Assembly (NCBI RefSeq): GCF_003854935.1
Contig: NZ_CP033971.1
Span: 124,001 to 188,000 of the forward strand
Direction: 5' to 3'
From: Cupriavidus pauculus
GTDB taxonomy: Bacteria; Pseudomonadota; Gammaproteobacteria; Burkholderiales; Burkholderiaceae
Length of the DNA stretch: 64,000 nt
Shown: positions 44,175-59,876 of the stretch, one piece after another
How positions within the stretch are numbered: the first letter of the stretch is position 1
Layout of the letters: every line of letters begins with the position of its first letter
Made by a program: the position numbers and the translations under genes
The notes under the pieces: model-generated
Told to the model about the DNA's origin: nothing
Seen by the model: the letters and a program-made list of their open reading frames with translations, nothing else
Databases searched by the model: none

Positions 44175-45641
44175 TCAGATTTCCAGCTCTTCCAGGACCT
44201 GGCCCTTGGTTTCGATACCGAGGAAGAACACGGTGACGGCAGCCAGCAGCGGCACCACCGCCAGCCCGAGGAAGGCGGTGCTCAGGTTGCCGGTGCCGAT
44301 GGTGGAGGCGATGATGCCCGGGGCAAAGATTGCCGACACCTTGAGCCACGCGCCGCCGAGCCCGCACCCCATCGCCCGCACGCTGGTCGGGTAGAGTTCA
44401 GGCGTATAGACGTAGGCCGTGATGAATCCGCAGGCCAGGAAGCCCATCGCCAGCGCGCAGAACGTGGCCACCACATAGACCGACGATGCGTGGAACACGC
44501 CCGCCAGGATCAGCGACGCCGCGCACAATACGAACGAGACATTGATGACCGGCTTGCGGCCAACCTTGTCCACCACCAGCGCACAGACCAGCGACCCGAC
44601 CACGCCCAGTACCGAGGCACCCGCCGCCAGGTTCAGCGCCAGTTGCAGCGGCGCGTGGTAGACGGTCTTGTAGACGGTGGGCAGCCATGTGGACAGCCCG
44701 TACTGGATAAAGCCGCAGGTGGCCCACAGCATCCATACGGCCAGCGTGCGGCCCAGATACGCCTTGCCTACCAGGTCGCGCACCCGGCGGCGCGGATGCT
44801 TGCCCATCGCGTCGAACCTCGATGCATCGCCAACCGGTGCCAGCGGCTGCTTCGCACGCGCCTCGAACTGGCGCAGCGCGTCGTCGGCTTCCGCCAGGCG
44901 GCCCTTCTCGGCCAGCCAGCGCGGCGACTCCGGAATCACGCGGCGCAGCACGAAGAACAGCACCAGCGGCGCGCCGCCCAGGAAATACATCACTTCCCAG
45001 CCATAGCGCGGCACCAGCACGGCACCCATCGCATTTGAGACCATCAGCCCGATGGGGAACACGATCTCGTACAGCAGCACGAACCGGCCCCGGCCGTGGG
45101 CGCGCGTCACCTCGTTGATATAGGTGGCCGCCACCGGCAGTTCGCCGCCAAGCCCAAGGCCCTGCACGATGCGCAGCAACAGGAAGATCTCGAACGACGG
45201 CGCGAAGCCGCACGCCAGGCTCATCAGGCCGATGATGCCCGCGCTCCAGCCAATCGACCGCAGGCGGCCAAACCGTTCGGCCAGCGCCGGAAACAGCAGC
45301 GCACCCACCAGTTGCCCCACCGACGGGGCGGCGATCAGCAAGCCGATCTGGCCCGGCGACAGCGACCACTTGCCGATCAGCAGCGGCAGCGTGGCGGCAA
45401 TGGCGATCACGTCGAAGCCATCGAAAAACGTGGCCAGGCCGATCAGCAGCCGTGCCCGCACGTGCATCATGTTGCCGGGCATGCGCTCGATACGGGCGAC
45501 GATCTGCCCGCGTGTCACGGGCGTGGCCGCCTGGGTCTGGGATGGGGTGGCGGCCTCGCCGGCCGCTGCGCCGCCGTAGGCTACGGTGCCCGCCTGCGCG
45601 CCCTGCATCGAGGGCGCTGCGTCTTGTCTCTGAATCAACAC
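44175..45641 (-). CDS. MFS transporter, aromatic acid:H+ symporter type
   Basis: A 488-residue twelve-helix carrier. Residues 1-55 are a hydrophilic N-terminal tail, then the helices start at MHVRARLLIGLATFFDGFDV, whose DGFD is the typical AAHS-type start; the conserved loop AERFGRLRSIGWSAG follows TM2 and VDKVGRKPVINVSFV is the equivalent in the second half. These carriers import benzoate- or vanillate-like acids with protons. The GTG at 45641 has GGAAGAG 8 bases in front. Last gene of the operon; a terminator follows. Confidence 0.9.
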   Translation of the reverse strand: MLIQRQDAAPSMQGAQAGTVAYGGAAAGEAATPSQTQAATPVTRGQIVARIERMPGNMMHVRARLLIGLATFFDGFDVIAIAATLPLLIGKWSLSPGQIGLLIAAPSVGQLVGALLFPALAERFGRLRSIGWSAGIIGLMSLACGFAPSFEIFLLLRIVQGLGLGGELPVAATYINEVTRAHGRGRFVLLYEIVFPIGLMVSNAMGAVLVPRYGWEVMYFLGGAPLVLFFVLRRVIPESPRWLAEKGRLAEADDALRQFEARAKQPLAPVGDASRFDAMGKHPRRRVRDLVGKAYLGRTLAVWMLWATCGFIQYGLSTWLPTVYKTVYHAPLQLALNLAAGASVLGVVGSLVCALVVDKVGRKPVINVSFVLCAASLILAGVFHASSVYVVATFCALAMGFLACGFITAYVYTPELYPTSVRAMGCGLGGAWLKVSAIFAPGIIASTIGTGNLSTAFLGLAVVPLLAAVTVFFLGIETKGQVLEELEI

Positions 45642-45765
45642 GGGTATCTCTTCCGGAATCGTGTAGGGCAGTCACCCGCGTGGCCGCTTCGTCCCTGAAC
45701 GTGCGACTCTGCCATGGCGGCGGGCAGTCTTCGTTGCCGCGCCTGTCACGGCACGGCGGGGTCCG

Positions 45766-46722
45766 TCAAAGGTCCAGCACCAGGCGCTGGCCCTTGCAAC
45801 CGGATACGCAGACCATCATCGTCTGGTTCGATTCGCGCTCGCTGTTGCTAAGCACGCTGTCGCGGTGATCGGGACAACCTTCGACCACCGCTGTCTCGCA
45901 CGAACCGCACACGCCTTCGCGGCAGCTGTACTCCACGGCCACGCCGGATTCCAGCAAAGCGTCGAGCAGCGACTTGCCGGACGGCACGCGCACGGTCTTG
46001 CCGGAGCGCTGCAGCTGGACGCTGTACTCGCCCTCCTGCACCGCTTCGGTGGCCGGGTCGGCCGCGAAGCGTTCGATATGCACGTTCGGGTAGCCGTGCG
46101 CTTCGCAGGCCGCCTCGAAGGCGTTGAGCATCGGGCCGGGGCCGCAGCAATAGAAGTGCGTGGTGGCGTCCTGCCCCGCCAGCATCGCCTTCAGGTCCGG
46201 CGGCACGCCGGCCTCGTCGTCGAAGTGAAAGCGCACGGCGTCGCCATAGGCCGACAGCTGCTCGACGAACGCCGCCTCCGCACGCGAGCGTGCGCAATAC
46301 AGCAGCGTGAACGAGCGGCCGCGCTCGGCCAGGCGCCGCGCCATGCACACGATCGGAGTCACGCCGATGCCGCCGGCGACCAGCACCGTGTGTGCGGCAT
46401 CCTCGTCCAGCGCGAAATGGTTGCGCGGCACCGCCACCGTCAGCGTGGTGCCGACGCGCAACTGCTCGTGCACGAAACGCGAGCCGCCACGGCTGTTGCG
46501 GTCGTTGAGCACGCCAACGGTGTAGCGGTCGCACTGTTCGGGCGCGCCGCACAGCGAATAGCTGCGCACCAGGCCGTTGGCCAGATGCAGGTCGATATGC
46601 GCGCCCGGCGCGAATGCCGGCAGCGGCGTGCCTTCGGGATCGCGCAGTTCGACGCTGACAACGCCACGCGCCTCGAAGCGCATGGCCTGCACGCGCAGGG
46701 TTAAAGATTGGCTCGCACTCAT
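45766..46722 (-). CDS. phthalate dioxygenase/VanB-type reductase
   Basis: A 318-residue flavin-iron-sulfur reductase. The flavin site has RSYSLCG (about 53-59), the NAD(H) domain has LVAGGIGVTPIVCMARRL (about 115-132), and a C-terminal plant-type [2Fe-2S] domain has CREGVCGSCETAVVEG plus a last Cys in MVCVSGCKG. It carries electrons from NAD(P)H to a Rieske oxygenase; the obvious partner is encoded at 54778-55833 in the same operon, nine genes upstream. Such two-component systems demethylate methoxy-aromatics or dihydroxylate aromatic acids. Confidence 0.94.
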   Translation of the reverse strand: MSASQSLTLRVQAMRFEARGVVSVELRDPEGTPLPAFAPGAHIDLHLANGLVRSYSLCGAPEQCDRYTVGVLNDRNSRGGSRFVHEQLRVGTTLTVAVPRNHFALDEDAAHTVLVAGGIGVTPIVCMARRLAERGRSFTLLYCARSRAEAAFVEQLSAYGDAVRFHFDDEAGVPPDLKAMLAGQDATTHFYCCGPGPMLNAFEAACEAHGYPNVHIERFAADPATEAVQEGEYSVQLQRSGKTVRVPSGKSLLDALLESGVAVEYSCREGVCGSCETAVVEGCPDHRDSVLSNSERESNQTMMVCVSGCKGQRLVLDL

Positions 46723-46764
46723 GGGGGCTTCCTTCTACTTCGAGACTTCCAGTCTTCCAGACAC

Positions 46765-47730
46765 TTAACGCTTTTCCGTCAGGAACTTGCCTTCCGGGCC
46801 GCCGGCGTTCTTCTGCCGGCGAGTATTGCCGTCGATGCCGCCTTCGATCGCCCATTCGGCGAACGTGGTCGGGCCTGGCTCGAATTCGCGCGGCTCCCAG
46901 TGGGCATCGAGCTGGTCTTCGTCGGCGTAGTACTCGATCAGGCCGCCGGCCGGATTCTTGAAGTACCAGAAGTACGCCGACGAGATCGGATGCCGGCCCG
47001 GCCCGAGCTGCGTATCCCAGCCCGTGCGCGACATGTGCATGCCGCCGCCAAACACCTCGTGGATATCGCGCACCGTGAACGCCACGTGGTTGAGTCCGGC
47101 CTTGCCATGCGGCAGCTGCAGCAGGAACAGGTCGTGGTGACCGCCCTCGGCCGCGCAGCGCAGGAACGCGCCACGGCCCGGGTAGTTGTCCGATTGCACG
47201 AAGCCGAACTTCTCCATGTAGAAGCGCTCGGTGGCCTTCACATCCTTCACGAAGAACACCACGTGCCCCACTTCGATGGGGATCGCGCGCTCGTAGATCG
47301 GGCTCCGCTCGTTCATGCGCGGCTTGTCGTTCCACGTGTTCATGCGCGCGCACTCCACCAGCACGTCATGCTTGCGCGATACCTGGAAGCGCACTGCCAG
47401 GCCGTTCGGGTCGGTGCAGCCGATGCGTGCCCCATCCTGCAGCGACACGAACGTCGGCTCGTTGCCGATACGGTCGCGGATGGCGGCCAGCGATGCCTCG
47501 TTGTCCACGCCCCACACCACTTCGCGCAGCGTCGGGCCGTCCTCGATCGCCGCCGCCAGCGCCGCGTCGGCGATCTTGCGCACCAGCACGCGGCAGCCGT
47601 TCAGCGTCTCGAAGTCCAGGCCCTGCGCGTCGTCGCGCTTGATGGCCAGGCCCCAGTCGCCGAAGAAGCCACGGCATGCGTCGAAGTCGTCGGCACCGTA
47701 GACGATTTCGTCAATTCCCAATACTTTCAT
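46765..47730 (-). CDS. extradiol ring-cleavage dioxygenase (VOC superfamily)
   Basis: A 321-residue protein of two vicinal-oxygen-chelate modules. In the C-terminal module the iron ligands of type I extradiol dioxygenases are all seen: His in EVGHVVFFVKDV (about 153), His in GLNHVAFTVRDI (about 210) and Glu in GGLIEYYADED (about 267). The N-terminal module starts KVLGIDEIVYGADDFDACRGFF. It should open a catechol-type ring next to its hydroxyls. It begins 1 base after the aldehyde dehydrogenase stop. The C-terminal tail (GNTRRQKNAGGPEGKFL) is an extra. Confidence 0.9.
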   Translation of the reverse strand: MKVLGIDEIVYGADDFDACRGFFGDWGLAIKRDDAQGLDFETLNGCRVLVRKIADAALAAAIEDGPTLREVVWGVDNEASLAAIRDRIGNEPTFVSLQDGARIGCTDPNGLAVRFQVSRKHDVLVECARMNTWNDKPRMNERSPIYERAIPIEVGHVVFFVKDVKATERFYMEKFGFVQSDNYPGRGAFLRCAAEGGHHDLFLLQLPHGKAGLNHVAFTVRDIHEVFGGGMHMSRTGWDTQLGPGRHPISSAYFWYFKNPAGGLIEYYADEDQLDAHWEPREFEPGPTTFAEWAIEGGIDGNTRRQKNAGGPEGKFLTEKR

Positions 47731-47731
47731 T

Positions 47732-49210
47732 TCAGTCTCCGGCCCACGGCAGCGGTTGTTCGTTCAAGCCCCAGTACACGCTCTTCTGTTCCATGTACTG
47801 CAGGATGCCAAGTCGTCCCTTCTCGCGGCCCAGGCCGCTGTCGCGCCAGCCGCCGAACGGCGTCGCGATCGAGAACTGCTTGTAGGTGTTGATCCAGACG
47901 TTACCGGCTTGCACGGACCGTGCCACCCGCCACGCACGCTTGTAGTCGCGCGTCCAGATGCCGGCCGCCAGCGCATAGACGCTGTCGTTGGCCTGCTCGA
48001 TCAGGTCGTCCTCGTCGTCGAACGGCATCGCCACCAGCACCGGCCCGAAGATTTCCTCCTGGCAGATGCGTGCGTGGTTGTCGAGCCCTTCGATGATGGT
48101 CGGCGTATAGAAGTAGCCATTGGGCAGGCCGGGCACGTCCGGGCGGATACCGCCCGTGCGCAGCTGGCCGCCGTCTGCCACGCCTACCGCCACGTACGAT
48201 TCGATGCTGTCGCGGTGCCGGTCGGTGATCAGCGGCCCCATCTGGGTGCGTTCATCGGCCGGATCGCCCACTCGCAACTTCGCCGCCGCAGCAGCCAGTC
48301 GGTCGATGAATGGCTCGTACTGCGAGCGCGCCACGAACAGGCGCGAGCCGGCAATGCACGATTCGCCCGACGAACTGAAGATGCCGTACAGCACGCCGTT
48401 CACCGCGTGGTCCAGGTCGGCATCGTCGAACACCATCGTCGGCGACTTGCCGCCCAGTTCCAGCGACACCGGCATCATCTTGTCGGCCGCGATATGCGCA
48501 ATGTGCTTGCCGGTAGTGGTGCCACCGGTGAACGACACGCGCTTCACCAGCGGGTGCTTGGTGATGGCGTCGCCAATGACCGAGCCCTTGCCCGGCAGCA
48601 CGCTGATCAGGCCACGCGGCACACCGGCCTCTTCGCAGATGGCGGCCAGTTCCAGCGCCATCAGCGGCGTTACCTCGGCCGGCTTGACGATGACAGCGTT
48701 GCCGGCGGCCAAAGCGGGCGCCATCTTCTGTGCCTCGCTGGCAATTGGCGAGTTCCACGGCGTGATGGCCGCCACCACGCCCATCGGCTCGTAGACACTC
48801 ATCGTCAGGCAATCGCCGCGTTGCGGCGTGATCTGCTCTTCCAGCGTTTCCAGTGCGGCGGCAAAGAACTGGAAGGTCGCCGCAGCGCTGGCCACCAGCG
48901 CGCGGGTTTCGCTGATCGGCTTGCCGTTGTCCAGCCGCTGGCTCTGGGCCAATGATTCGGACTTGGCGCGGATCAGCGCGGCCACACGGTGGAGCACGGC
49001 GGCGCGCTCGTGCGGCTTGCGTTGGGCCCATCCGCTGACACGGAAGGCCTGATGCGCGCCCTGGATGGCCTCCTCGACATCGGCCAGGCTGGCCGCGTTC
49101 AGTTCGGCCACCACCTCGCCAGTGGCGGGGTAGCGCGTGGCGTAGCGGTCGCCGCCGCCCGGGCGCCACTCGCCGGCAATCAGGATGGGAAGGACTTGTT
49201 GCGTCGTCAT
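47732..49210 (-). CDS. aldehyde dehydrogenase (NAD(P)+)
   Basis: A 492-residue ALDH of normal length. The NAD-binding stretch TPWNSPIASEAQKMAPALAAGN includes the oxyanion Asn, the general base Glu lies in SLELGGKSPTMVF (about 258) and the nucleophile Cys in SSGESCIAGSRLFV (about 292). In this operon its natural role is oxidation of the semialdehyde produced by extradiol cleavage, as 2-hydroxymuconic semialdehyde dehydrogenase does. The C-terminal PFGGWRDSGLGREKG motif is intact. Confidence 0.94.
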   Translation of the reverse strand: MTTQQVLPILIAGEWRPGGGDRYATRYPATGEVVAELNAASLADVEEAIQGAHQAFRVSGWAQRKPHERAAVLHRVAALIRAKSESLAQSQRLDNGKPISETRALVASAAATFQFFAAALETLEEQITPQRGDCLTMSVYEPMGVVAAITPWNSPIASEAQKMAPALAAGNAVIVKPAEVTPLMALELAAICEEAGVPRGLISVLPGKGSVIGDAITKHPLVKRVSFTGGTTTGKHIAHIAADKMMPVSLELGGKSPTMVFDDADLDHAVNGVLYGIFSSSGESCIAGSRLFVARSQYEPFIDRLAAAAAKLRVGDPADERTQMGPLITDRHRDSIESYVAVGVADGGQLRTGGIRPDVPGLPNGYFYTPTIIEGLDNHARICQEEIFGPVLVAMPFDDEDDLIEQANDSVYALAAGIWTRDYKRAWRVARSVQAGNVWINTYKQFSIATPFGGWRDSGLGREKGRLGILQYMEQKSVYWGLNEQPLPWAGD

Positions 49211-49225: not shown

Positions 49226-50038
49226 TCAGATCGACACCGCGTGCGCGCGGTTGCCGAGGGCGCGCACCACACTGAACACGGTCAGCGCGGACGTCTTGGG
49301 GTTGGCCGCCAGCGGCTTGCCGCGCATGGTCAGCTCGAAGCCGCCGAATGCGCCGCGTGCTTCCACGTGGTGGACGTTCTCCACCGCCGACGGATCGGCC
49401 AGCAGCTTGACCGACGTGCGGTCCAGCCCCAGTCCGGCCAGCGACACGGTGGCCGCCACATTGGCGTTCTTGGGATAGAGCCGTGCGGCATCGCGCGCCG
49501 TGCCTTCGAAGATCACGGTCGGCTCGGTCAGCGCATCGAGGTCGAACAGCTGCTCGGCCGGCGTGCCGGTCCATGCGCGCGCCGGCTTGCGGCCCGTGTA
49601 GATGACCTCGTCCAGCCCGCCCACGCGGGCAGCCGCCAGGGCATCGATGGCACCGATGGCACCGGACAGCAGCTGCACCTGCGTGTTGCCACGGCGTGCC
49701 GCGGCCTCCAGGCGTTCGGCCATCCCGGGCTCCGAAAGCGCGCCCACCGACACGACCAGGCACGGAATGCCGCGCTCCAGGGCCGGTACCACGTGTTCCT
49801 CCAGCGCCTGGTGGCCCGCGCATTCGACCAGCAGGTCGGGGCGCTGGTCACCGTCGGCCAGCCGCGTCGCCACGCGCACGTGGGGCGCCAGCGTCGACAG
49901 CGCGCCGCGCGCCTCGTCCATCCCGCCTTCCGGCACGATGACCACGTCGAACGCGACATCCGGATCGGACTTCAGCAGTTCCAGCACGCCGCGGCCAATC
50001 GCACCGCAACCCACCATCGACACATGCAGCATGGACAT
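49226..50038 (-). CDS. L-aspartate dehydrogenase-like enzyme
   Basis: A 270-residue NAD(P)-dependent dehydrogenase of the AspDH/NadX family: Rossmann start HVSMVGCGAIGRGVLELL, then LLSGAIGAIDALAAAR, and PKNANVAATVSLAGLGLDRT, which contains the family's conserved Asn pair. The final VFSVVRALGNRAHAVSI is standard. The family oxidatively deaminates L-aspartate to iminosuccinate or oxaloacetate and ammonia. An amino-acid dehydrogenase inside a ring-cleavage operon is unexpected; a different carboxylic or imino substrate is possible. It is separated by 15 bases from the ALDH and 6 from the ThDP gene. Confidence 0.88.
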   Translation of the reverse strand: MSMLHVSMVGCGAIGRGVLELLKSDPDVAFDVVIVPEGGMDEARGALSTLAPHVRVATRLADGDQRPDLLVECAGHQALEEHVVPALERGIPCLVVSVGALSEPGMAERLEAAARRGNTQVQLLSGAIGAIDALAAARVGGLDEVIYTGRKPARAWTGTPAEQLFDLDALTEPTVIFEGTARDAARLYPKNANVAATVSLAGLGLDRTSVKLLADPSAVENVHHVEARGAFGGFELTMRGKPLAANPKTSALTVFSVVRALGNRAHAVSI

Positions 50039-50044: not shown

Positions 50045-51742
50045 TCAGGCCGCTGCCGCCGCCGTATTGGCGATCGGGGCCTGCTTGTTGACCGGCGGGC
50101 CGGCAAACACGGTCTTGAAGCTGCCGATCGATAGCATGTCGATCTCCAGCAGGAACGGACCCGGCTCTACAGTTGCGGCCTCCAGCGCGGCGCCGATATC
50201 GGCCAGGTTGCTCACGCGGCGGTGGCGCAGCGCCAGCGACTGGCACAGCTGCGCATAGTCGGGCGTGTGCAGGTCCACGTAGTGGCGGCGGCCGCCGTAC
50301 TGCGCGTCCTGGATGTTCTTGATCACGCCGTAGCCCTTGTCGTTCATCAGCACGATGACCATGTCGGCGCGCTCCTGCACCGCCGTGGCCAGCTCGCCCA
50401 GGTTCAGGATGAAGCCGCCATCGCCAGCCAGCGTGAACGTCTTCTTGCCCGATGCCGTGGCGGCCGCGCCCACTGCGGCGCCGATACCCATCGCCAGGCC
50501 CTGGCCGATGCCACCGCCCAGCGCATGCACGCCGGCACGCGAATCGAACAGTTGCAGGTGGCGGTTGCCCCAGGTGCTGTTTGACACGGTCACGTCGCGC
50601 ACCCAGTTGAAATTGCGGCCCACGGCCTGCTGCAGCGCCTGCACCAGCGCGCTGTACGGGCCCAGGCCATCGACCAGCGCGCCCACGGCGGCGTCATGCG
50701 CGCGACGCAGGTCGGCAGCGAAGTTGTCATCGATCAGCATGCGGCCTTGCAGGCGGTCGGCCAGGCCGTCAAGCGCCAGCGCGGCGTCGCCGCTGACAAA
50801 GTCATCGCTCTGGTAGCAGCGGCCTTCGGCAGCCGGATCGGCGTCGATGCGCAGCAGCGGGCGCGGCAGCTTCAGTTCGTACTTGAGCGTCTCGTTGCCG
50901 CGCAGGCGCGATCCGACCACGACCATGGCATCGCAGGTCTGGTAGAACGTTTCCACCGGCTTGTGCAGGTTGTAGGCACCCAGCGAGCGCGGATCGTCCT
51001 CGGGCACGATGCCACGGCCCTGCGTCGACGTGACCACGCCAAAGCCCATGTCCATCAGGCGTTTGACCTGCTTGCTGGCGTGGCGCGCGCCACCGCCCAG
51101 CCACAGCATCGGACGTTTGGCCTTCAGCAGGCGCTCGGCCAGCGCATCGAGCGCATGGGCCGACGGCTGGTGTTGCGGCACCGGCAGCGGCTTCAGGTCG
51201 TTCGGCATCGGAATCAATGCCGCCTGGATGTCGATGGGGATCTCCACGCTGACCGGGCCAGTCGGCGCCGTCAGCGCGGTCTGCACGGCGAGCTTGATCG
51301 TCGAGATGGCGGTGTCGGCGCTGCGGATGCGGAAGGCGGCCTTCGACACGGCCTTCAGCATCGTGAGCTGATCGGGTGCTTCGTGGATGTAGGCCAGGCT
51401 CTGGTCCAGGTACGGCGTTTCGATCTGGCCCGTGATGTGCAGCATCGGCGTGCCGGCCGTCAGCGCTTCCACCATGGCGCCGGCGGCATTGCCTGCGGCG
51501 GTGCCGGTGCTGGTCAGGCACACGCCCAGACTGCCCGTGGTGCGGGCGTAGGCGTCGGCCATGTTGGTGCCGCCCGCTTCGCCGCGCGCGGGGACGAAGC
51601 GGATCTTGCCGCGTTCGCCCATCGCATCGAGGATGGGCATGTTGTGGATCGAGATCACGCCGAATGCAGCCTTGACGCCGCACTGTTCGAGGAAGGCTGC
51701 AATGGCGCAGCCCACGGTGACTTGTTGTTGCTCGTTACGCAT
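50045..51742 (-). CDS. thiamine diphosphate-dependent enzyme (acetolactate synthase/benzoylformate decarboxylase type)
   Basis: A 565-residue three-domain ThDP enzyme. The Pyr domain has the activating glutamate in FVPARGEAGGTNMADAYA (about 50), the central domain GGGARHASKQVKRLMDMGFG, and the PP domain the ThDP/Mg motif GDGGFILNLGELATAVQERA with VLMNDKGYG (about 440-475). These enzymes decarboxylate or ligate 2-oxo acids. Here a decarboxylase for a 2-oxo acid from the ring-cleavage product is plausible. The ATG at 51742 overlaps the SDR gene end by 8 bases; an open frame to 51808 is not needed. Confidence 0.9.
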   Translation of the reverse strand: MRNEQQQVTVGCAIAAFLEQCGVKAAFGVISIHNMPILDAMGERGKIRFVPARGEAGGTNMADAYARTTGSLGVCLTSTGTAAGNAAGAMVEALTAGTPMLHITGQIETPYLDQSLAYIHEAPDQLTMLKAVSKAAFRIRSADTAISTIKLAVQTALTAPTGPVSVEIPIDIQAALIPMPNDLKPLPVPQHQPSAHALDALAERLLKAKRPMLWLGGGARHASKQVKRLMDMGFGVVTSTQGRGIVPEDDPRSLGAYNLHKPVETFYQTCDAMVVVGSRLRGNETLKYELKLPRPLLRIDADPAAEGRCYQSDDFVSGDAALALDGLADRLQGRMLIDDNFAADLRRAHDAAVGALVDGLGPYSALVQALQQAVGRNFNWVRDVTVSNSTWGNRHLQLFDSRAGVHALGGGIGQGLAMGIGAAVGAAATASGKKTFTLAGDGGFILNLGELATAVQERADMVIVLMNDKGYGVIKNIQDAQYGGRRHYVDLHTPDYAQLCQSLALRHRRVSNLADIGAALEAATVEPGPFLLEIDMLSIGSFKTVFAGPPVNKQAPIANTAAAAA

Positions 51743-52538
51743 GACGGGAGAGTCCTCCGGAAATATCGATGTGGCTGCCCGTGGTGTACGAAGACAACGG
51801 CGAGGCAAGGAACAGGATGGCGCGCGCGGCTTCCTGCGGCAGGCCGAGACGGCCCAGTTGAATGTGCTTCTGCCGGGCCAGACGCGCGGTCCACGCGGTC
51901 CAGTCCAGATGGCGGTCCTCGTCGGGGCGCGCGTCGAAGCGGCGGCGCCACTGGCCCGATTCCACCAGGCCGATCAGGATGCCGTTGACGCGCACGCCCT
52001 TGGGCGCGAACTCGGTGGCCAGCGAGCGCACGAGGTTATGCACCCCGGCACGCGCTGCGGACGTGGCCACCATATGGGGCTCCGGCTGCGTGGCCAGCAG
52101 CGAGTTCACGCAGACCATGGCGCCCTGCTTCGATTGCTCCAGCTGGGGCAGGAACGCGCGCGTCGGGTGGATCACCGAGAAGAACTTGAGCTGCAGTTCC
52201 TCGACCCAGGCCGCGTCCTCTGTGGTGGCGAACGTCGACACGCGGCCCTGGCCGGCGTTGTTGACGAGCATGTCCACGTTGCCCAGTTCGCGCGCCACGT
52301 CGGCGGCAAAGGCGTTGACCTGTTCCGGCTTGAGCACGTCGCAGGTGGCCGCGTACAGGCGGCAACCGGCAAAGCGCTCGCGCAACGCGGCTTCGGCGCT
52401 GCGCAGGCGGGCTTTGTCACGGCCGCACATGGCTACGGCGGCGCCCGCTTCCAGCAATAATTCGACCGTGGCCAGCCCAATGCCGGAGGACCCGCCGGTC
52501 ACGACGGCTACGTTGCCGTCGAGTTCAATCATGGACAT
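51735..52538 (-). CDS. SDR-family protein with non-canonical active site
   Basis: A 267-residue SDR: nucleotide-binding turn VTGGSSGIGLATVE (about 13-26), NNAGQGRV near residue 92 and a normal C-terminus ending GSHIDISGGLSRHA. The active-site stretch, however, is NSLLATQPEPHMVATSAARAG where a YxxxK pair is expected; I see neither the Tyr nor the Lys in register. The Ser is present. Either the catalysis differs or the protein has another role. The ATG at 52538 or, two codons on, at 52532 may start it. It overlaps the ThDP gene by 8 bases. Confidence 0.88.
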   Translation of the reverse strand: MSMIELDGNVAVVTGGSSGIGLATVELLLEAGAAVAMCGRDKARLRSAEAALRERFAGCRLYAATCDVLKPEQVNAFAADVARELGNVDMLVNNAGQGRVSTFATTEDAAWVEELQLKFFSVIHPTRAFLPQLEQSKQGAMVCVNSLLATQPEPHMVATSAARAGVHNLVRSLATEFAPKGVRVNGILIGLVESGQWRRRFDARPDEDRHLDWTAWTARLARQKHIQLGRLGLPQEAARAILFLASPLSSYTTGSHIDISGGLSRHA

Positions 52539-52561: not shown

Positions 52562-53425
52562 TCAATCGCGATACATGGCGACCACCTGGCCCGGCGCGCG
52601 CCTGGCGTGCCGATGGGGCCGGTAGCCAAGCAGGCGCGACAGTTCTCCTGCGGTTTCCCTGACTTTCCCGACCATGCGGTCGAGTTCTTCCTGCGGCAGC
52701 CGCGACGCCGGAATCGTGGCGCCCAGCGCGGCGGCAACCTTGCCGGTGCGGTCGCGCACTGGCGCCGCGATGGTCGAAATGCTGGCTTCGAAGAAGCCTT
52801 CGTGCAGCACGTAGCCACGCTGCTGCACCTGTTGCACCAGTTCGTGCAGCGCTTCCACGGTGCGCGGCGTGCTGTCCGAATAAACCTGCAGCTGCGCTTC
52901 CGGATACAGCTCGCGCAGCTGCTGAAGATCCATGTCCTCCAGCAGCACGTGGCCCAGCACCGTGGCATGCGCGGGCAGGCGTGCGCCCACGTTGATGTTG
53001 CTGGCGAACGGCCGCGACGCCGCGGCCTTGGCCACGTACACCACCGAGCGCCCGTCGCGTACGACGAGATTGCACGGGTATTCGATGTCGTCGCGCAGGC
53101 GGTTCAGCAGCGGCCCGCCCAGTTCGGTCAGCTCCAGCGATGCCAGGTAGTCGAAGCCCAGCCGCAGCACCGCCAAACCCAGCCGGTACTCGCGGCCGCC
53201 GTCGGCGCGCTCCACATAGCCCGTGGATTCCAGCGTGGCCAGCAGGCGGAACACCGTGGAACGCGGCACGTTCAGGCGGCGCGACAGGTCGGCCGCCGAC
53301 AGCACGCGGTCGCGCGCGCTGAATTCGGCCAGCAGGCGCAGGCCACGTTCCAGGCCCGGGACGATGTACCTGTCCAGGCTTTCGGCGGGCAGCGCGCTGT
53401 CTGCTGCGGATGGATTGGCGCTCAT
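52562..53425 (-). CDS. IclR-family transcriptional regulator (copy 2)
   Basis: A 287-residue IclR regulator with HTH (AADLSRRLNVPRSTVFRLLATLE, split over about residues 43-66) and effector domain (GYVLHEGFFEASISTIAAPV). It is nearly the same protein as IclR copy 1 apart from the first 20 and last 20 residues, where this copy has the extra tail HARRAPGQVVAMYRD. It is embedded inside the operon between an SDR and a cupin gene, so its level rises with the operon. Two related regulators probably read the same operator set. Confidence 0.94.
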   Translation of the reverse strand: MSANPSAADSALPAESLDRYIVPGLERGLRLLAEFSARDRVLSAADLSRRLNVPRSTVFRLLATLESTGYVERADGGREYRLGLAVLRLGFDYLASLELTELGGPLLNRLRDDIEYPCNLVVRDGRSVVYVAKAAASRPFASNINVGARLPAHATVLGHVLLEDMDLQQLRELYPEAQLQVYSDSTPRTVEALHELVQQVQQRGYVLHEGFFEASISTIAAPVRDRTGKVAAALGATIPASRLPQEELDRMVGKVRETAGELSRLLGYRPHRHARRAPGQVVAMYRD

Positions 53426-53453: not shown

Positions 53454-53996
53454 TCAGCGCTTGACCTTGGTGAGCGGATGCTCGGGCGGATAGGTCGGCG
53501 TGATCGGCTTCTTCGCGCCCAGTATCACGCACATCAGCGCGTCTTCCTCGCCGATGTTGATTTCCTCGCGGTACACGCCCGGCGGCACCGACACCAGGTC
53601 ACGGTCGGTCAGGATGGTCTCGAAGCGTTCGCCGTCCTTTTCCAGCACCAGCTTGATCTTGCCGCGCAGGATGAAGAACACCTCTTCCACATCGGTGTGC
53701 AGGTGCGACGGGCCTTCGTGGCCGGCCGGGATGATCATGGTCGAGAACGTGAAGTGCTCCGACGGCACGGTATTGGTGTCGGCGGCAACGCCGGTGCCGC
53801 CCGTGCCCAGGTAGCGCATCTGGGCGCGGCGGTACTTCGGGTCGTAGTCGGCCTGGAACTTCAGCGCGTCCCAGTCGTAGCGGCGCGTGCTGAAGCGCGC
53901 CACGCGCGATTCCATCCACTTGTCGAACGAGGCGCCCTCAGGCTGCTCCCAGCTGCGCTTGATGTTTTCCTGTTGCGACAGATCGCTCATTTCCAT
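53454..53996 (-). CDS. cupin-domain protein
   Basis: A 180-residue cytoplasmic protein with one cupin barrel in residues about 75-165: GPSHLHTDVEEVFFILRGK supplies two His and one Glu metal ligand and PPGVYREEINIG the second motif, where the usual last His is replaced. The N-terminal 60 residues (SWEQPEGASFDKWMESRVAR) are specific to this group. It may be a small dioxygenase, isomerase or decarboxylase-type enzyme for a ring-cleavage intermediate, but nothing fixes this. ATG at 53996 or 53990 are both possible. Confidence 0.88.
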   Translation of the reverse strand: MEMSDLSQQENIKRSWEQPEGASFDKWMESRVARFSTRRYDWDALKFQADYDPKYRRAQMRYLGTGGTGVAADTNTVPSEHFTFSTMIIPAGHEGPSHLHTDVEEVFFILRGKIKLVLEKDGERFETILTDRDLVSVPPGVYREEINIGEEDALMCVILGAKKPITPTYPPEHPLTKVKR

Positions 53997-54014: not shown

Positions 54015-54785
54015 TTATTGCATGACAAAGCCGCCGTTGACCGCCAGCGTCTGGCCGGTCACGAAACGGGCGAGGTCGGACAGCGCGAACAGCACGGCGC
54101 CGCAGACGTCATCGGGTACCTGTTCGCGCTGGATGGCGCGCTGGTTGCGGTATAGGTCGTGCCGGTGCTGCGGCACGTATTCGGTGGCTTCCACCAGCGT
54201 CAGGCCGGGCGCCACGGCATTGACCGTGACGTTCGCATCGCCGAGTTCACGGGCCAGCGAGCGGGTCATGCCGATGATGGCGCTCTTGCTGGCCACATAG
54301 GCCAGCAGGTTCGGCGCGCCCCACAGCGGGGTGTCCGATGCCAGGTTGATCACCGCGCCCCGGCCGCTGGCGCGCAACGCCGGCGTGCAGGCGGCCGTCA
54401 TCAGCCACGTGCCGCGCACGTTCACGTTCATCACGCGGTCCCACGTGGCGACGTCAAGCTCGGTCAGGCCACGGCCGCCGGAATCGGTCACCGCACCGTT
54501 GTTGACCAGGCCGTCCAGGCCGCCCAACGCTTCGGCGGCGGCACTGGCGCAGGCCTGCACCGAAGCTGGCTCGTTCAGGTCGAGCTGCAGCGGCACCACC
54601 TTGAAGCCACGTGACTTCAGCGCGGCGGCCGATTCCTGGACGCGGTCGGCCAGGATGTCGGCCATGGCTACGCTGCCGCCGGCTTCGGCGATGGCCGTTG
54701 CAAAGGCCAGGCCCAGGCCGCGCGCGGCGCCGGTGACCAGCACCTTGCGGCCGGCCAGCAGGTTTGCGTACTGGCGATCAGGCAT
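54015..54785 (-). CDS. short-chain dehydrogenase/reductase
   Basis: A 256-residue classical SDR with VTGAARGLGLAFATA (about 15-29), an aspartate after beta-2 (VAMADIL) pointing to NAD(H), NNGAVTD near 93, catalytic Ser in NLASDTPLWG and the canonical YxxxK in LLAYVASKSAIIGMTRSLA. It could oxidise a cis-diol or an alcohol side chain of the aromatic substrate. The ATG at 54785 overlaps the end of the Rieske gene by 8 bases, so translation is coupled. Unlike the SDR at 51735 its catalytic residues are complete. Confidence 0.92.
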   Translation of the reverse strand: MPDRQYANLLAGRKVLVTGAARGLGLAFATAIAEAGGSVAMADILADRVQESAAALKSRGFKVVPLQLDLNEPASVQACASAAAEALGGLDGLVNNGAVTDSGGRGLTELDVATWDRVMNVNVRGTWLMTAACTPALRASGRGAVINLASDTPLWGAPNLLAYVASKSAIIGMTRSLARELGDANVTVNAVAPGLTLVEATEYVPQHRHDLYRNQRAIQREQVPDDVCGAVLFALSDLARFVTGQTLAVNGGFVMQ

Positions 54786-55833
54786 GGCTGTGGGCTCCGG
54801 CCACCGGCTGCAGCATGGCCACCGGGTCGTCGGCCACCTCGGCATCGGCGCGGCGCTTCAGCAGGCGGCGTACACGCGTGATGCCGGCATCGTGCGCGTA
54901 GAGCATTTCGTGATCGCGCGCGCCCGGGGCCATCGACTCCAGCACCACGCGGTCCTGTTCCAGCACGTCCCAGTGCAGGCCTTCCAGGCGGTTGCGATAC
55001 AGGAAGCGCCACACGTCGCGCTCCCAGCCCTGCACCTGGCGGGTACGCCAGAAGAACACCATGCAGTGCTCTTCATCCACCGGCGTGGCGATGCCGACGA
55101 TGCCGAACGGGCCGCCGGGGCCCACCTTGTCGCGATACGGGATCGACAGGCGCAGCCACAGCGTGCCGGTCTCGCCAAATTCCACCCAGTCGAAGTTCAC
55201 GCCGCGCTGGCCGGTCTTTTCGAAGATCAGGCCATGATCGGTTTCCACGACCTGCATCACGGCGGACTTCTCTCCGCTGGCCATCGAGTGCGACACCGCA
55301 TGCAGGTAGGCGCCGTGCATCGGGTCCATGACGTTGTCGATGGCGTAGCGGTAGTTGCAGTCCCAGTGCGCCACGCACAGGAAGTTGCTGTGTTCCTCGC
55401 TGACCAGTTCCTCGGGCAGGCGCAGCGCATCGGCCTCGGCGGGCGCGCGGTCGCCGAACCACAGGAAGATGGCGCCGGCCTGCTCTTCCACGGGATAGCT
55501 GCGCACGCAGGTGCGGCCTTCCAGCGGGCAGTTGTCCACGGCCGGCACGCTCTTCACCTGGCCATCGCCACCCACTTCCACGCCGTGATACCAGCAGGCC
55601 ACGCGGTCGCCGAGGTTCCAGCCCATCGACAGACGCGCGCCACGGTGCGGGCAGCGGTCTTCCAGCGCGTTGAGCTTGCCGGCGTTGTCACGCCACACCA
55701 CGATGTTCTGGCCCAGGCGCGTGATGCCGATCGGGGCGTGCGTGACCTGCCACGACGCAGCCACCGGATACCAGTAGTTGCGCAGGCCGGTGTTCAGGCG
55801 CGCTTCGGCGCGTGCTTGCTTGTTCGATTCCAT
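54778..55833 (-). CDS. Rieske non-heme iron oxygenase, large subunit (VanA/phthalate dioxygenase type)
   Basis: A 351-residue oxygenase. The Rieske cluster ligands are in RCPHRGARLSMGWNLGD with CWYHG (C-x-H then C-x2-H, about 58-83) and the mononuclear iron site is DPMHGAYLHAVSH (Asp-x2-His-x4-His, about 170-178). The start TGLRNYWYPVAASWQV is typical of vanillate demethylase-like and phthalate-type oxygenases, which need only one oxygenase subunit and a VanB-like reductase, here encoded at 45766-46722. It is the presumed first attack on the aromatic substrate. Confidence 0.94.
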   Translation of the reverse strand: MESNKQARAEARLNTGLRNYWYPVAASWQVTHAPIGITRLGQNIVVWRDNAGKLNALEDRCPHRGARLSMGWNLGDRVACWYHGVEVGGDGQVKSVPAVDNCPLEGRTCVRSYPVEEQAGAIFLWFGDRAPAEADALRLPEELVSEEHSNFLCVAHWDCNYRYAIDNVMDPMHGAYLHAVSHSMASGEKSAVMQVVETDHGLIFEKTGQRGVNFDWVEFGETGTLWLRLSIPYRDKVGPGGPFGIVGIATPVDEEHCMVFFWRTRQVQGWERDVWRFLYRNRLEGLHWDVLEQDRVVLESMAPGARDHEMLYAHDAGITRVRRLLKRRADAEVADDPVAMLQPVAGAHSHA

Positions 55834-55866
55834 GTCTGTCTTCTCGCTTGTCGTCTCAGCCGGCGC

Positions 55867-56172
55867 TCAGGCGCCCAGGCGGCGCATTTCGGAGAGGAAG
55901 CGTTCCTCGGTCCACGACTGGCCGTCGGCAGCCAGGAAACCGGATTGATTGAACGCACGCACGATGTCTTCCGGAGATTTGGCACCGCCCCCGAAGGCGG
56001 CTTCCAGCGCGTCGCCCAGCACGGTCTCGTAGGCGGTGGGCGCGGCGGCGCGCGTCTGCCAGACGATGTTGATCACGTGGCCAGGCTTCTCGATATGACC
56101 CTTGCCGGCGACGTTGTTGGGCGCGGGACGCTCCCAGGGAACCAGGTTCGGGTTGTACGCGAGGCTTTCCAT
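55867..56172 (-). CDS. small protein with recombinase-like helix-turn-helix domain
   Basis: A 101-residue protein: an N-terminal arm (ESLAYNPNLVPWERPAPNNV) with HIEKPGHVINIVWQTR, then a helical C-terminal half (YETVLGDALEAAFGGGAKSP, EDIVRAFNQSGFLAADGQSW, TEERFLSEMRRLGA) that looks like a compact three-helix HTH similar to recombinase DNA-binding domains. I recall such small proteins from ring-hydroxylation clusters, but their role is not known. The ATG at 56172 has GGAG nine bases upstream; ATG at 56187 is possible. It is the first gene of the 12-gene operon. Confidence 0.75.
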   Translation of the reverse strand: MESLAYNPNLVPWERPAPNNVAGKGHIEKPGHVINIVWQTRAAAPTAYETVLGDALEAAFGGGAKSPEDIVRAFNQSGFLAADGQSWTEERFLSEMRRLGA

Positions 56173-56251
56173 TGCGCTTTGCTCCATAGCTTGCTTTGTG
56201 GGGGGCGGCTGGCTCAATCCGCTGTCGCGCTCCATCGGCCTGACGCTGTCG

Positions 56252-56269
56252 CGTTTTACCTATGAAACA
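56252..56269. promoter_or_regulatory. candidate IclR operator B (12-gene operon)
   Basis: CGTTTTACCTATGAAACA differs from operator D in only three bases and lies 80 bases before the first gene of the operon. A looser dyad, GTTTAGATATTGAAC, follows at 56273-56287. Confidence 0.7.
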
Positions 56270-56393: not shown

Positions 56394-57275
56394 TCAGGCG
56401 CCGGGAATGGCGTTGCGAATCAACTGTGCGACCGCGCGAGGCTGCTCGATGTAGCACGCGTGTCCGGCATCGGCAATGGCATGAAATGGCAGGCCGAAGC
56501 GTTCGGCCATCGCCGCGGACGCCTCGGGCGTAGTGACCACGTCCTGCGCTCCGCATCCCACTTCGACCGGACGCTGGGTCGCTTCCAGATAGCGGCCGAT
56601 GTCGTCGCCGCTCAGCAGCGCCACGGCCTGTCGATAGCCATCGGCGTTCAGCCGCTGCATGTTCCAGCGCACCCATGCCTGGGCGTCCGGCGTGGCCGCC
56701 GGGCTGAGCAGCCGGGTGGGGCCGCGTTGCGCGAGCCCGTCCACACCCAATGTTTCCAGCGATGCGATGCGCTGCCGGGCCACTTCACGCGATTTCTCTT
56801 CGCTGCCCGGCGCGCCATATCCCAGCGCGGGGCTCAGCAGCAGGAACCGGTCTGGCTGCAGTGCGTCGGGCGCATGGGCGGCATAGCCGGCGGCCATCAA
56901 GGCACCGAGCGAATGACCCACGATCAGATCGGGCCGTACTTGTAGCGCCGCCAGCATCGCTTCGAGCCGCATCGCATAGTCGCGCGCGGTCGGCGCGGGC
57001 ATTGGCAGCGGCGACGACTGGCCGTAGCCCGGCGCATCCCATGCGATCACGCGCGCGTGGGCGGCCAGCAGGCTCGCGCACGGCAGCCACGACGCCGCCC
57101 CGGAACTGATGCCGTGCAGCAGCACGACCACCGGGCCCCGCGAGCCGCCGATGCGGCAGGCCAAGCGCGTACCGTCGGGGCCGGTCATTACCAGGCGCTC
57201 GGCGAAGTGGCTATCCAGCGCGGCCAGCAGGTCGACGCCGGGAGCGGGTGCGGATTGGCGCACAGAGTGTTCCAT
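56394..57275 (-). CDS. alpha/beta hydrolase
   Basis: A 293-residue alpha/beta-fold hydrolase. The oxyanion stretch is VVLLHGISSGAASW (about 50-63), the nucleophile elbow GHSLGALMAAGYAA (Ser near 119), the acid residue probably in VEVGCGAQDVVTTPEA and the histidine in AGHACYIEQPRAVA near the C-terminus. Such enzymes hydrolyse esters, lactones or the C-C bond of ring-cleavage products, which fits the regulon. No ribosome binding site precedes the ATG at 57275, and operator C covers that start; a GTG at 57263 is an alternative. Confidence 0.9.
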   Translation of the reverse strand: MEHSVRQSAPAPGVDLLAALDSHFAERLVMTGPDGTRLACRIGGSRGPVVVLLHGISSGAASWLPCASLLAAHARVIAWDAPGYGQSSPLPMPAPTARDYAMRLEAMLAALQVRPDLIVGHSLGALMAAGYAAHAPDALQPDRFLLLSPALGYGAPGSEEKSREVARQRIASLETLGVDGLAQRGPTRLLSPAATPDAQAWVRWNMQRLNADGYRQAVALLSGDDIGRYLEATQRPVEVGCGAQDVVTTPEASAAMAERFGLPFHAIADAGHACYIEQPRAVAQLIRNAIPGA

Positions 57276-57285
57276 ATATGAAATA
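57268..57285. promoter_or_regulatory. candidate IclR operator C (alpha/beta hydrolase start)
   Basis: TGTTCCATATATGAAATA is almost a perfect palindrome of the shared type, covering the start codon region of the hydrolase gene. Confidence 0.65.
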
Positions 57286-57670: not shown

Positions 57671-57688
57671 TGTTTTACTAATGAAACA
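57671..57688. promoter_or_regulatory. candidate IclR operator D (porin-Bug operon)
   Basis: TGTTTTACTAATGAAACA is an 18-bp palindrome with outer arms TGTTT/AAACA, 80 bases before the porin ATG. Confidence 0.7.
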
Positions 57689-57767
57689 CAAAGACACGGC
57701 AGCCCCCATACCGTTGCCAGCGGAAACGTCCACGACAAGCCCACAAGACAAGAGAAGGAAACGGTAG

Positions 57768-58862
57768 ATGAAGATCGCAAAGTACGCGGCGGGCCTGCTC
57801 GCAGTCGCGCCCCTGCTGGCCTGCGCCCAGTCCGTCACCATGTATGGCGTGGTGGACACCGGCGTGGAATTCGTCAACAACGTCGGCGCCGCCGGCAACA
57901 GCGTGGTGCGCATGAACACGCTGACCGGCACCGTGCCGTCGCGCTGGGGCCTGCGCGGCACCGAGGACCTGGGCAATGGCCTGAAGAGCGTGTTCGTGCT
58001 CGAAGGCGGCTTCGCGCCCGACTCCGGCAATGCCAACCAGGGCGGCCGCCTGTTCGGGCGCCAGGCGCTGGTGGGCCTGTCGTCGAACAAGTGGGGCCAG
58101 GTCTCGTTCGGGCGCCAGTACACGATGCTGTTCTGGGCCACGCTCGACCCGGACATCCTGGGGCCGAACGCCTTCGGCTCCGGTTCGCTGGACAGCTACC
58201 TGCCCAACACCCGGGCCGACAATGCCGTGGCCTACAAGGGCACGTTCGGCGGCCTGACCGTGGGCGCAACGTACAGCTTTGGCCGCGATACGGCCAACGC
58301 CGGCCCCAGCCCGTCCGGCACCAACTGCGCCGGCGAAAACCCCGCCAGCAAGAGCCAGTGCCGCGAATGGTCGGCCATGATCGGCTGGGACCAGAAATGG
58401 TGGGGCATCACGGCCGCCTATGACGCGCAGCGGGGCGGCCCGGGCGCCTTTGGCGGCCTGACCAGCGCCAGCCTGCGCGACGACCGCGCATCGATTGCCG
58501 GCTACGTGCTGCTGGATCGCACCAAGCTTGGCGCCGGCGTGATCCGCCGCGAAAACCAGGGCAGCACGACGCCGCTGTCGGAGCTGTACTACATCGGCGC
58601 GGCCTACGACATCACGCCCGCCTTCACGTTGGCCGGCCAGGTCTACTACCTGAACTACCAGAACAGCGCCAACAAGGCGATGCTGTACGCCGTGCGCGGC
58701 ATGTACAACTTCAGCAAGCGTACGGCGGTGTATGCCACGGCCGGCTATATCAACAACGACGGCACGCTGGCAATGTCCGTGAGCGGCGCGCAGGCCGGTG
58801 CAAACCCGAAGCCGGGCGGCCAGCAGTTCGGCGCCATGGTCGGCATCAAGCACGTGTTCTAA
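57768..58862 (+). CDS. outer-membrane porin (Gram-negative porin family)
   Basis: A 364-residue betaproteobacterial porin. A signal peptide (MKIAKYAAGLLAVAPLLACA, cleavage near residue 20) is followed by SVTMYGVVDTGVEFV, the usual first strand, RWGLRGTEDLGNGLKSVFVLE, and the end GAMVGIKHVF with the terminal Phe needed for barrel insertion. Trimeric porins of this type let anions and aromatic acids through the outer membrane. Its place, 12 bases before a Bug gene and beside the ring-cleavage operon, suggests substrate-specific uptake. AGGAAACGG stands before the ATG. Confidence 0.95.
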   Translation: MKIAKYAAGLLAVAPLLACAQSVTMYGVVDTGVEFVNNVGAAGNSVVRMNTLTGTVPSRWGLRGTEDLGNGLKSVFVLEGGFAPDSGNANQGGRLFGRQALVGLSSNKWGQVSFGRQYTMLFWATLDPDILGPNAFGSGSLDSYLPNTRADNAVAYKGTFGGLTVGATYSFGRDTANAGPSPSGTNCAGENPASKSQCREWSAMIGWDQKWWGITAAYDAQRGGPGAFGGLTSASLRDDRASIAGYVLLDRTKLGAGVIRRENQGSTTPLSELYYIGAAYDITPAFTLAGQVYYLNYQNSANKAMLYAVRGMYNFSKRTAVYATAGYINNDGTLAMSVSGAQAGANPKPGGQQFGAMVGIKHVF

Positions 58863-58874
58863 CGGAGTCGCCAT

Positions 58875-59876
58875 ATGAAACCGAACCTCGTCCGCCGCGA
58901 CGTCCTGGGGGCGATTGGCGCCGCCATCGGCACCGCCGCGCTGCTGAGCACCGCTCCGTCCATCGCAAAAGGCAACTATCCCGGCAAGCCGATCACCATC
59001 GTGGTGGCCTACCCCGCCGGTGGCGACACCGACGTGCTGGCCCGCCTGATGGCTGAAAAGCTCGCCGGGCGCCTGAAGCAGTCGGTCGTGGTGGAGAACC
59101 GCACCGGCGCCGCCGGCACCATCGGCAGCGCCTATGTGGCGCGCGCCGCCCCTGACGGCTACACGCTGCTGCTGGCGCCCAACACCGTGTCGATCGCGCC
59201 GCTGGTGCTGAAGGCCGGTACCGGCGCCAGCTACGACGTGCTCAACGACCTCACGCCGATTGCCGAGCTTGGCACGCAGTCGTTGTTCGTGGTGGTGAAC
59301 AAGAACAGCGGCATCGGCAAGATGAGCGACCTTGTGGCGCGCGCCAAGGCCGGCAAGCTCGAAACCTATGCCACGCCGGGCAACGGATCGCCGATGCACA
59401 TCATGGGCGAGCTGTTCAACAAGTCGGCCAACGTCAAGATCTCGCAGGTGCCCTACCGGGGCACGGCGCCGGCCATCGTCGACGTGCTCGGCGGCCAGGT
59501 GCCGATGACCTACGTCACCTACGGCCCCGTGGCCCAGTACGTGGGCAACGGCACCCTGGTGCCGCTGGCCGTGGCCGACCAGAAGCGCTCGCCGTTCGCG
59601 CCGAACGTGCCGACGCTGGCCGAACTGGGCTACAAGGATGTCGAGATCGGCGCCTGGCAGGCCCTGCTGGGCCCGAAGAACCTGCCGCCGGATATCGTCC
59701 GCCTGCTGAATGGCCACGTGAACGAGATCCTGAAGCAACCCGACGTGGTGGCACGCATGGCCACGATTGCCGTGACCCCGGTGGGTGGTGAACCGGCCGT
59801 ACTGCAGAAGCTGATGGCCGCCGACTACGCGCGCTATACCCGGCTGGTGAAGGAGTTCGCGATCCAGGCCGACTGA
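58875..59876 (+). CDS. Bug-family (TctC-like) periplasmic substrate-binding protein
   Basis: A 333-residue receptor with an N-terminus that resembles a twin-arginine signal (LVRRDVLGAIGAAIGTAALL) instead of the plain Sec signal of the other Bug proteins here. The mature part has YPGKPITIVVAYPAGGDTD, VENRTGAAGTIG and QVPYRGTAPAIVDVLGGQ. GGAGTCGCC precedes the ATG. It is in one operon with the porin and closed by a terminator. With the Bug at 41939 it gives two receptors in the presumed IclR regulon, maybe for substrate and an intermediate. Confidence 0.93.
   Translation: MKPNLVRRDVLGAIGAAIGTAALLSTAPSIAKGNYPGKPITIVVAYPAGGDTDVLARLMAEKLAGRLKQSVVVENRTGAAGTIGSAYVARAAPDGYTLLLAPNTVSIAPLVLKAGTGASYDVLNDLTPIAELGTQSLFVVVNKNSGIGKMSDLVARAKAGKLETYATPGNGSPMHIMGELFNKSANVKISQVPYRGTAPAIVDVLGGQVPMTYVTYGPVAQYVGNGTLVPLAVADQKRSPFAPNVPTLAELGYKDVEIGAWQALLGPKNLPPDIVRLLNGHVNEILKQPDVVARMATIAVTPVGGEPAVLQKLMAADYARYTRLVKEFAIQAD

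Follow-up and report, generated by a model that had tools for sequence, protein, structure and literature searches.

Kynurenate is a by-product of tryptophan metabolism, and the chemistry of its bacterial breakdown was worked out long ago. The route employs a dioxygenase, a dihydrodiol dehydrogenase, an extradiol dioxygenase, a reductase, a 2-oxo-acid decarboxylase and an aldehyde dehydrogenase; its intermediates are known, as is its carbon balance, in which C10 minus CO2 equals C4 plus C5 (matching the iminosuccinate and glutarate proposed here as end products). To our knowledge, Enzyme Commission (EC) numbers 1.14.99.2, 1.3.1.18 and 1.13.11.10 have no gene. No gene-level account of kynurenate degradation was found among the titles and abstract openings, mostly of the top listings, in the open-access literature; the text of PMC6449761 contains neither 'kynuren' nor 'aspartate dehydrogenase', and that of PMC2842291 contains no 'kynuren'. 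Here we describe a locus of Cupriavidus pauculus in a window of 64,000 nucleotides (positions 124,001 to 188,000 of NZ_CP033971.1, assembly GCF_003854935.1), part of a 334-kb contig in a 6.18-Mb genome. It contains a 12-gene operon with a Rieske oxygenase, an extradiol dioxygenase and an aspartate dehydrogenase (AspDH), and every enzyme of the kynurenate route has a candidate gene there. It is quite possible, at slightly below an even chance, that bacterial kynurenate catabolism finds its missing genes in this locus, an IclR-controlled regulon in which kynurenate, xanthurenate and quinaldate converge on 7,8-dihydroxykynurenate and the pathway ends in iminosuccinate captured by AspDH. The pseudomonad quinoline pathway for kynurenate shares with the locus the predicted reaction types of dihydroxylation, dehydrogenation, extradiol cleavage, 2-oxo-acid decarboxylation, aldehyde oxidation and release of smaller acids, but that pathway is enzymology for which we found no assigned genes, whereas the present locus is genes alone. 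A sequence-only reading of this DNA had held that the gene set matches none of the pathways it named; that much stands, yet the reaction types do match those of the kynurenate pathway.

Other described systems share fewer features with the locus. The homoprotocatechuate (hpa) pathway also has an extradiol dioxygenase and a related aldehyde dehydrogenase (ALDH), but the Rieske oxygenase, the thiamine diphosphate (ThDP) enzyme and the AspDH have no place there, and scores fall below the model cut-offs (HpaD 66.9 bits against 321.4, HpaE 473.8 against 638.35). Vanillate O-demethylase VanAB likewise combines a one-subunit oxygenase carrying a VanA_C domain with a VanB-like reductase; it differs in that here a short-chain dehydrogenase/reductase (SDR) adjoins the oxygenase, relatives use varied electron donors, and extradiol and nitrogen-handling genes are present. 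The vanillate, homoprotocatechuate and alkoxy-acid pathways were set aside on these grounds. As described in the available part of PMC12752717, the lumichrome (lum) pathway also brings a Rieske oxygenase, an extradiol enzyme and a ThDP decarboxylase to bear on an N-heteroaromatic compound, but it starts with a cytochrome P450, its ThDP enzyme is a heterodimer, the pyrimidine ring is lost by hydrolysis and oxamate is released; the text makes no mention of 'aspartate dehydrogenase'. KpnAspDH, DelAspDH, ReuAspDH and PaeAspDH (PMC5554190) belong by name to the same enzyme family as the AspDH of the locus; the available portion of that paper handles them for aspartate production, and its text does not contain 'gene cluster'.

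The presence of a molybdenum hydroxylase together with an AspDH indicates an N-heteroaromatic acid, and we have considerable confidence that the substrate is some acid of this class. Molybdenum hydroxylases of the xanthine dehydrogenase family act on N-heteroaromatics or aldehydes, AspDH interconverts aspartate with iminosuccinate, or with oxaloacetate plus ammonia, and some RidA-family proteins hydrolyse enamines and imines. When the RidA-like proteins of related loci are added, iminosuccinate becomes the suggested form in which nitrogen leaves the ring, and this fits an N-C(COOH)=C-C(=O) unit, that is, a 4-oxoquinoline-2-carboxylate. We therefore lean, somewhat beyond an even chance, toward a kynurenate-type substrate, most likely kynurenate. 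The AspDH (49226 to 50038; minus strand, as are all operon genes) scores 516.5 bits with the NF009827 equivalog model against a cut-off of 226 and is the single PF01958 match in the genome. Its His223, which we take to be the catalytic histidine, is present in 73 of 73 sequences and aligns with the histidine of the archaeal enzyme 2dc1. The predicted end products, iminosuccinate and glutarate, are compatible with the conversion of kynurenate by certain pseudomonads to glutamate, alanine and organic acids, as reported in the available part of the review PMC11354673.

We infer the individual steps of the proposed pathway from gene family, as assigned with Pfam and NCBIfam, and from gene order. 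Uptake of the acid would involve a porin (57768 to 58862, plus strand), a Bug (TctC) binding protein (58875 to 59876, plus strand) and a major facilitator superfamily (MFS) transporter (44175 to 45641) resembling aromatic acid symporters (TIGR00895, 216.5 bits, cut-off 418.55). A ring-dihydroxylating oxygenase and its electron donor are present as gene classes: the Rieske oxygenase alpha subunit (54778 to 55833), a proposed kynurenate 7,8-dioxygenase, would act with the VanB-like flavin/2Fe-2S reductase (45766 to 46722) to dihydroxylate the substrate at C7-C8. The oxygenase carries Rieske and VanA_C domains (the latter at 58.2 bits, cut-off 23.5); its closest Protein Data Bank (PDB) sequences are a putative phthalate 4,5-dioxygenase alpha subunit and DdmC, and its nearest named relatives are from Cupriavidus sp. 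EM10 (98.6%) and C. pauculus (97%). A structure model of it had a mean predicted local distance difference test (pLDDT) score of 36.1 and was set aside. SDR1 (54015 to 54785), which has a YVASK motif in the window copy and belongs to the gene class of the NAD-dependent dihydrodiol dehydrogenases, would serve as the cis-dihydrodiol dehydrogenase that rearomatises the product to 7,8-dihydroxykynurenate. In all 80 named loci (the best 80 of 582 matches, all Burkholderiaceae by record title) its gene starts within -25 to +11 bases of where the Rieske coding sequence ends, an arrangement that would suit dihydroxylation better than O-demethylation.

The extradiol dioxygenase of glyoxalase fold (46765 to 47730), a proposed 7,8-dihydroxykynurenate 8,8a-dioxygenase, would then cleave C8-C8a, leaving a pyridine that bears a 2-oxo acid as its side chain. 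Its putative active-site residues are conserved, with His156 in 79 of 79 sequences, His215 in 78 (one gap) and Glu266 in 77 (two gaps). SDR2 (51735 to 52538; PRK07062), a candidate side-chain or ring reductase, may reduce the side-chain double bond; it has a TSxAR stretch at the YxxxK position (consensus above 95% over 80 sequences), which makes ordinary alcohol dehydrogenase activity unlikely. The ThDP enzyme (50045 to 51742; PRK07064), whose glutamate is kept in 80 of 81 sequences and which reaches 257.3 bits with the 5-guanidino-2-oxopentanoate decarboxylase model (cut-off 500), would decarboxylate the 2-oxo acid to an aldehyde, and the ALDH (47732 to 49210, by family match) would oxidise this to 5-(2-carboxyethyl)-4,6-dihydroxypicolinate. 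Ring opening and the split into iminosuccinate (C4) and glutarate (C5) would fall to an alpha/beta hydrolase (56394 to 57275, minus strand) proposed to act on the ring or on a C-C bond, perhaps helped by the cupin protein (53454 to 53996, by family match), and AspDH would capture the iminosuccinate as aspartate. The molybdenum hydroxylase would admit unhydroxylated analogues such as quinaldate by C4 hydroxylation, and a flavin adenine dinucleotide (FAD) monooxygenase of sister genomes may admit xanthurenate by ortho-hydroxylation. Judged by their conserved catalytic residues, the window's enzymes look intact.

Beside the Rieske gene lies a small PF20552 (HTH_62) protein (55867 to 56235; likely start 56172, 101 amino acids), a possible partner of the oxygenase; tblastn matches it at 30 bits or more in every one of the 80 named loci. 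In its structure model (mean pLDDT 69.8) the C-terminal helices are confident and the conserved N-terminal half has low confidence; compared with the PDB, the model gave no match with E below 5.

Recomputed gaps and family assignments confirm 12 minus-strand genes running from 56172 or 56235 to 44175, and here the sequence-only reading was right in coordinates, strand, gene content and a largest gap of 124 bases. Computed from likely starts, the gap between the HTH_62 and Rieske genes is 33 bases, followed by an 8-base overlap of Rieske and SDR1, gaps of 18 (SDR1 to cupin), 28 (cupin to IclR) and 23 bases (IclR to SDR2), an 8-base overlap of SDR2 and ThDP, and gaps of 6 (ThDP to AspDH), 15 (AspDH to ALDH), 1 (ALDH to extradiol) and 42 bases (extradiol to reductase), with 124 bases ahead of the MFS gene. 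This spacing suggests one transcript. The clear terminator that had been claimed is real and is located slightly past the first hairpin: the fold at 44132 to 44088 on the minus strand has -21 kcal/mol, a U6 tail and a z of -3.74, and 0 of 200 shuffles were as good. A scan for the sigma-70 consensus found 0 promoters against 1.8 expected in shuffles.

The gene set is conserved as a unit. All nine core genes (HTH_62, Rieske, SDR1, cupin, IclR, ThDP, AspDH, ALDH and extradiol) were found by tblastn, on which all census counts are based, in each of the 73 named loci that are 20 kb or longer; among the seven shorter ones, three (L039, L065 and L110) lack one to three core genes at contig ends. The locus census leaves aside L001-L033, L114, L120-L138, L169-L173 and L174 onward. 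In the rows displayed, the recurring order is HTH_62-Rieske-SDR1-cupin-(hydrolase)-IclR-(SDR2)-ThDP-AspDH-ALDH-extradiol. In the displayed rows of Ralstonia, Paraburkholderia, Burkholderia and Caballeronia the operon encloses the alpha/beta hydrolase gene, and this connects the window's copy at 56394 to 57275 with the pathway; that copy and the second operon described below were absent from the earlier description. Across 35 other Rieske-bearing loci, several of which lie at contig ends or carry a distant Rieske paralogue, with most core genes missing, the matches number 26 for SDR1, 27 for cupin, 30 for IclR, 24 for HTH_62, 23 for ThDP, 22 each for SDR2 and hydrolase, 21 each for AspDH and ALDH and 18 for extradiol; L118 and L158 are stretches of one plasmid with two Rieske copies, and L151 and L159, from contigs of equal length (913,575), are apparently one plasmid, so the 35 include repeats. 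The enzyme set occurs in different orders in Acinetobacter baumannii, Novosphingobium pSA2, Pseudosulfitobacter, Nitratireductor, Paracoccus and Streptomyces, and likewise in a Klebsiella cluster (CP125156.1, L115) between speB and tkt, where AspDH is unannotated. Electron donors in relatives are of three types: a VanB-like reductase, a Rieske ferredoxin with an FAD oxidoreductase, or an FAD oxidoreductase with a flavodoxin. At this level of similarity the oxygenase is uncommon in the genome samples, being found in 15 of 398 genomes of the phylum (E at most 1e-60) and 12 of 300 of the order (E at most 1e-80), the genome studied here included in both. On the Caballeronia NK8 plasmid pNK84 (L118/L158) a second oxygenase set consists of ferredoxin, HTH_62, Rieske, ThDP and extradiol genes, followed by a three-subunit molybdenum hydroxylase and a CoxG-like protein.

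The regulon is predicted to be larger than the 12-gene operon, with three units behind a shared putative operator, which bears out the earlier use of the word. An imperfect palindrome, GTTTCATNNGTAAAAC, stands ahead of the HTH_62 gene and ahead of the porin gene. A looser pattern, GTTYCATNNRTAAAAC, matches the 6.18-Mb genome at exactly three places, each of them in this locus, and its reversed control at none; this rarity is partly circular because the pattern was built from the sites themselves. The putative operators are GTTTCATAGGTAAAAC (56253 to 56268, minus strand) ahead of the 12-gene operon, GTTTCATTAGTAAAAC (57672 to 57687, minus strand) ahead of porin-Bug and GTTCCATATATAAAAC (43965 to 43980) ahead of a second operon; a weak operator-like sequence where the hydrolase gene starts (57269 to 57284, minus strand) has three mismatches and is within chance. 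The second operon (43931 to 39202, minus strand) encodes IclR regulator 2 (43029 to 43922), a second Bug (TctC) protein, Bug2 (41939 to 42976), and the 2Fe-2S (41369 to 41809) and molybdopterin (39202 to 41385) subunits of a two-subunit molybdenum hydroxylase, whose MoCoBD_1 and MoCoBD_2 domains with a 2Fe-2S subunit are of xanthine dehydrogenase type. Regulator 2 is 72-77% identical over the aligned part to IclR regulator 1 of the first operon (52562 to 53425), and both are PcaR/PobR-like below the cut-off of TIGR02431 (182.2 bits for regulator 1 and 179.8 for regulator 2, cut-off 284.75). These two paralogues would control the three units through one palindrome. A XerC-like tyrosine recombinase (37200 to 38873) lies beside the molybdenum hydroxylase operon, close to where nine of 13 sister loci have the FAD monooxygenase described below.

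In a downstream set of 14 Cupriavidus loci (the window, L177-L188 and L192), six carry a two-subunit and six a three-subunit molybdenum hydroxylase in the same slot, the latter 64-65% identical to the enzyme of pNK84, and a looser operator pattern precedes the second unit in 11 of the 14. A three-subunit enzyme also occurs within about 3 kb after the Rieske gene in L118, L160, L161 and L162. Adjacency alone is mild evidence, since the genome has 11 molybdenum-hydroxylase-domain matches; more weight falls on the similar operator and on the exchange of enzyme type in a single slot. An FAD monooxygenase, with 3-hydroxybenzoate 6-monooxygenase as its best NCBIfam model (below cut-off), is encoded near the operon in nine of the 14 loci and has no match in the 64-kb window. 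RidA-family proteins (PF01042), whose best NCBIfam model is an enamine/imine deaminase, again below cut-off, occur in seven of the 35 other loci, one plasmid being counted twice.

The operator-linked molybdenum hydroxylase, the AspDH and the RidA-like proteins in themselves indicate an N-heteroaromatic compound and nothing narrower, and the substrate could instead be another acid of this kind, synthetic or derived for example from quinoline, pyridine or indole; AspDH would then trap oxaloacetate or an imine other than iminosuccinate. We regard this as unlikely, if the most serious of the alternatives: the C4 skeleton of the AspDH reaction, HOOC-C(=N)-CH2-COOH, which is established enzymology, suggests a ring with a 4-oxo-2-carboxy arrangement about nitrogen, and the wide occurrence of the core without the accessory genes suggests a common natural substrate. 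The VanA_C domain, the VanB-like reductase and the presence of DdmC among the closest PDB sequences would suit O-demethylation of a methoxylated aromatic acid to a catechol that is then cleaved, AspDH having only a role in nitrogen supply. That is improbable, because SDR1 adjoins the Rieske gene throughout the named loci, the electron donor is swapped in relatives for a Rieske ferredoxin or flavodoxin set, no VanA model is among the NCBIfam matches, and the AspDH, RidA-like proteins and molybdenum hydroxylases would be left unexplained. The earlier guess at the substrate accordingly divides: support goes to an N-containing aromatic acid, which can be sharpened to a kynurenate-type compound, whereas an alkoxy acid is less likely given the conserved SDR neighbour. 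More improbable still is an aromatic amino acid such as dihydroxyphenylalanine (DOPA) or a hydroxylated kynurenine, degraded with its side chain kept and AspDH acting on a side-chain fragment; the extradiol enzyme is weakly HpaD-like and AspDH does act on an amino acid, but the molybdenum hydroxylases would have no explanation and a ready catechol needs no initial Rieske oxygenase.

Several observations weigh against kynurenate as the substrate, or against parts of the proposed pathway. No gene at the locus is kynurenate-specific. SDR2, the candidate for the side-chain reductase, lacks the catalytic Tyr and Lys, and the cupin is without a proven role. The molybdenum hydroxylases reach no NCBIfam equivalog cut-off; the nearest PDB entry is 4-hydroxybenzoyl-CoA reductase for the three-subunit type and an aldehyde dehydrogenase for the two-subunit type, and by these nearest solved relatives they could be CoA-ester or aldehyde enzymes. 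Neither type is present in the stretches fetched for L186 and L188 (two of the 14 Cupriavidus loci), and three of three downstream stretches from the genus Ralstonia have no molybdenum hydroxylase nearby. RidA has no match in the window or in any of the 80 named loci. To the circularity of the looser operator pattern is added its restriction: all 26 loci L034-L059 (Cupriavidus, Ralstonia and two Burkholderiaceae bacterium records) have a site that keeps 12 or more of the 14 fixed bases in the 700 bases before the oxygenase gene, as against none of the 54 remaining named loci, so the operator is lineage-specific. In Klebsiella CP125156.1 the single AspDH match is to an open frame of 133 amino acids, and this copy may be broken or interrupted.

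The link to tryptophan catabolism and part of the AspDH literature belong on the same side. In all eight order genomes with both genes, the oxygenase and tryptophan dioxygenase are on separate contigs, a comparison in which other kynurenine genes, kynureninase and aminotransferase among them, were not searched. Tryptophan dioxygenase co-occurs with the oxygenase (eight of 12 oxygenase-positive genomes against 49 of 288 others, p 3e-4), but genome size and kinship are confounders here, and the association is not relied on. Five stretches around tryptophan dioxygenase genes (L169-L173) showed no Rieske cluster by open reading frame labelling, with many flanking frames unlabelled; in one same-order genome (G345, L169) about 8 kb separates two tryptophan dioxygenase genes. 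In favour of the AspDH assignment, the available part of PMC5554190 reports the Klebsiella and Delftia enzymes as purified and characterised and cites those of Ralstonia and Pseudomonas as characterised, but the high activity of the Ralstonia enzyme could not be reproduced there. Cupriavidus pinatubonensis (L193) has a second AspDH gene, 52% identical and outside the cluster, and the published Ralstonia enzyme may thus not be the cluster copy.

Elsewhere in the window, at 60864 to 62598, an AraC/DJ-1-type regulator on the minus strand overlaps the start of an HD-domain open reading frame on the plus strand that is weakly cyanamide hydratase-like (43.5 bits, cut-off 109.85).

The enzyme families of this locus are ordinary, and its interest lies in their combination, in the regulon and in its likely identity with an orphan pathway. 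If the assignment to kynurenate is true, it would provide genes for the three EC numbers that we know of only as gene-less activities. It would also give a physiological role to mesophilic aspartate dehydrogenases and a reason why many mesophilic bacteria carry one. Kynurenate is excreted in urine and is degraded by certain pseudomonads, according to a review (PMC11354673, available part). The gene set, which is also present in Klebsiella and Acinetobacter records, would allow genomes and microbiomes to be scored for kynurenate removal.

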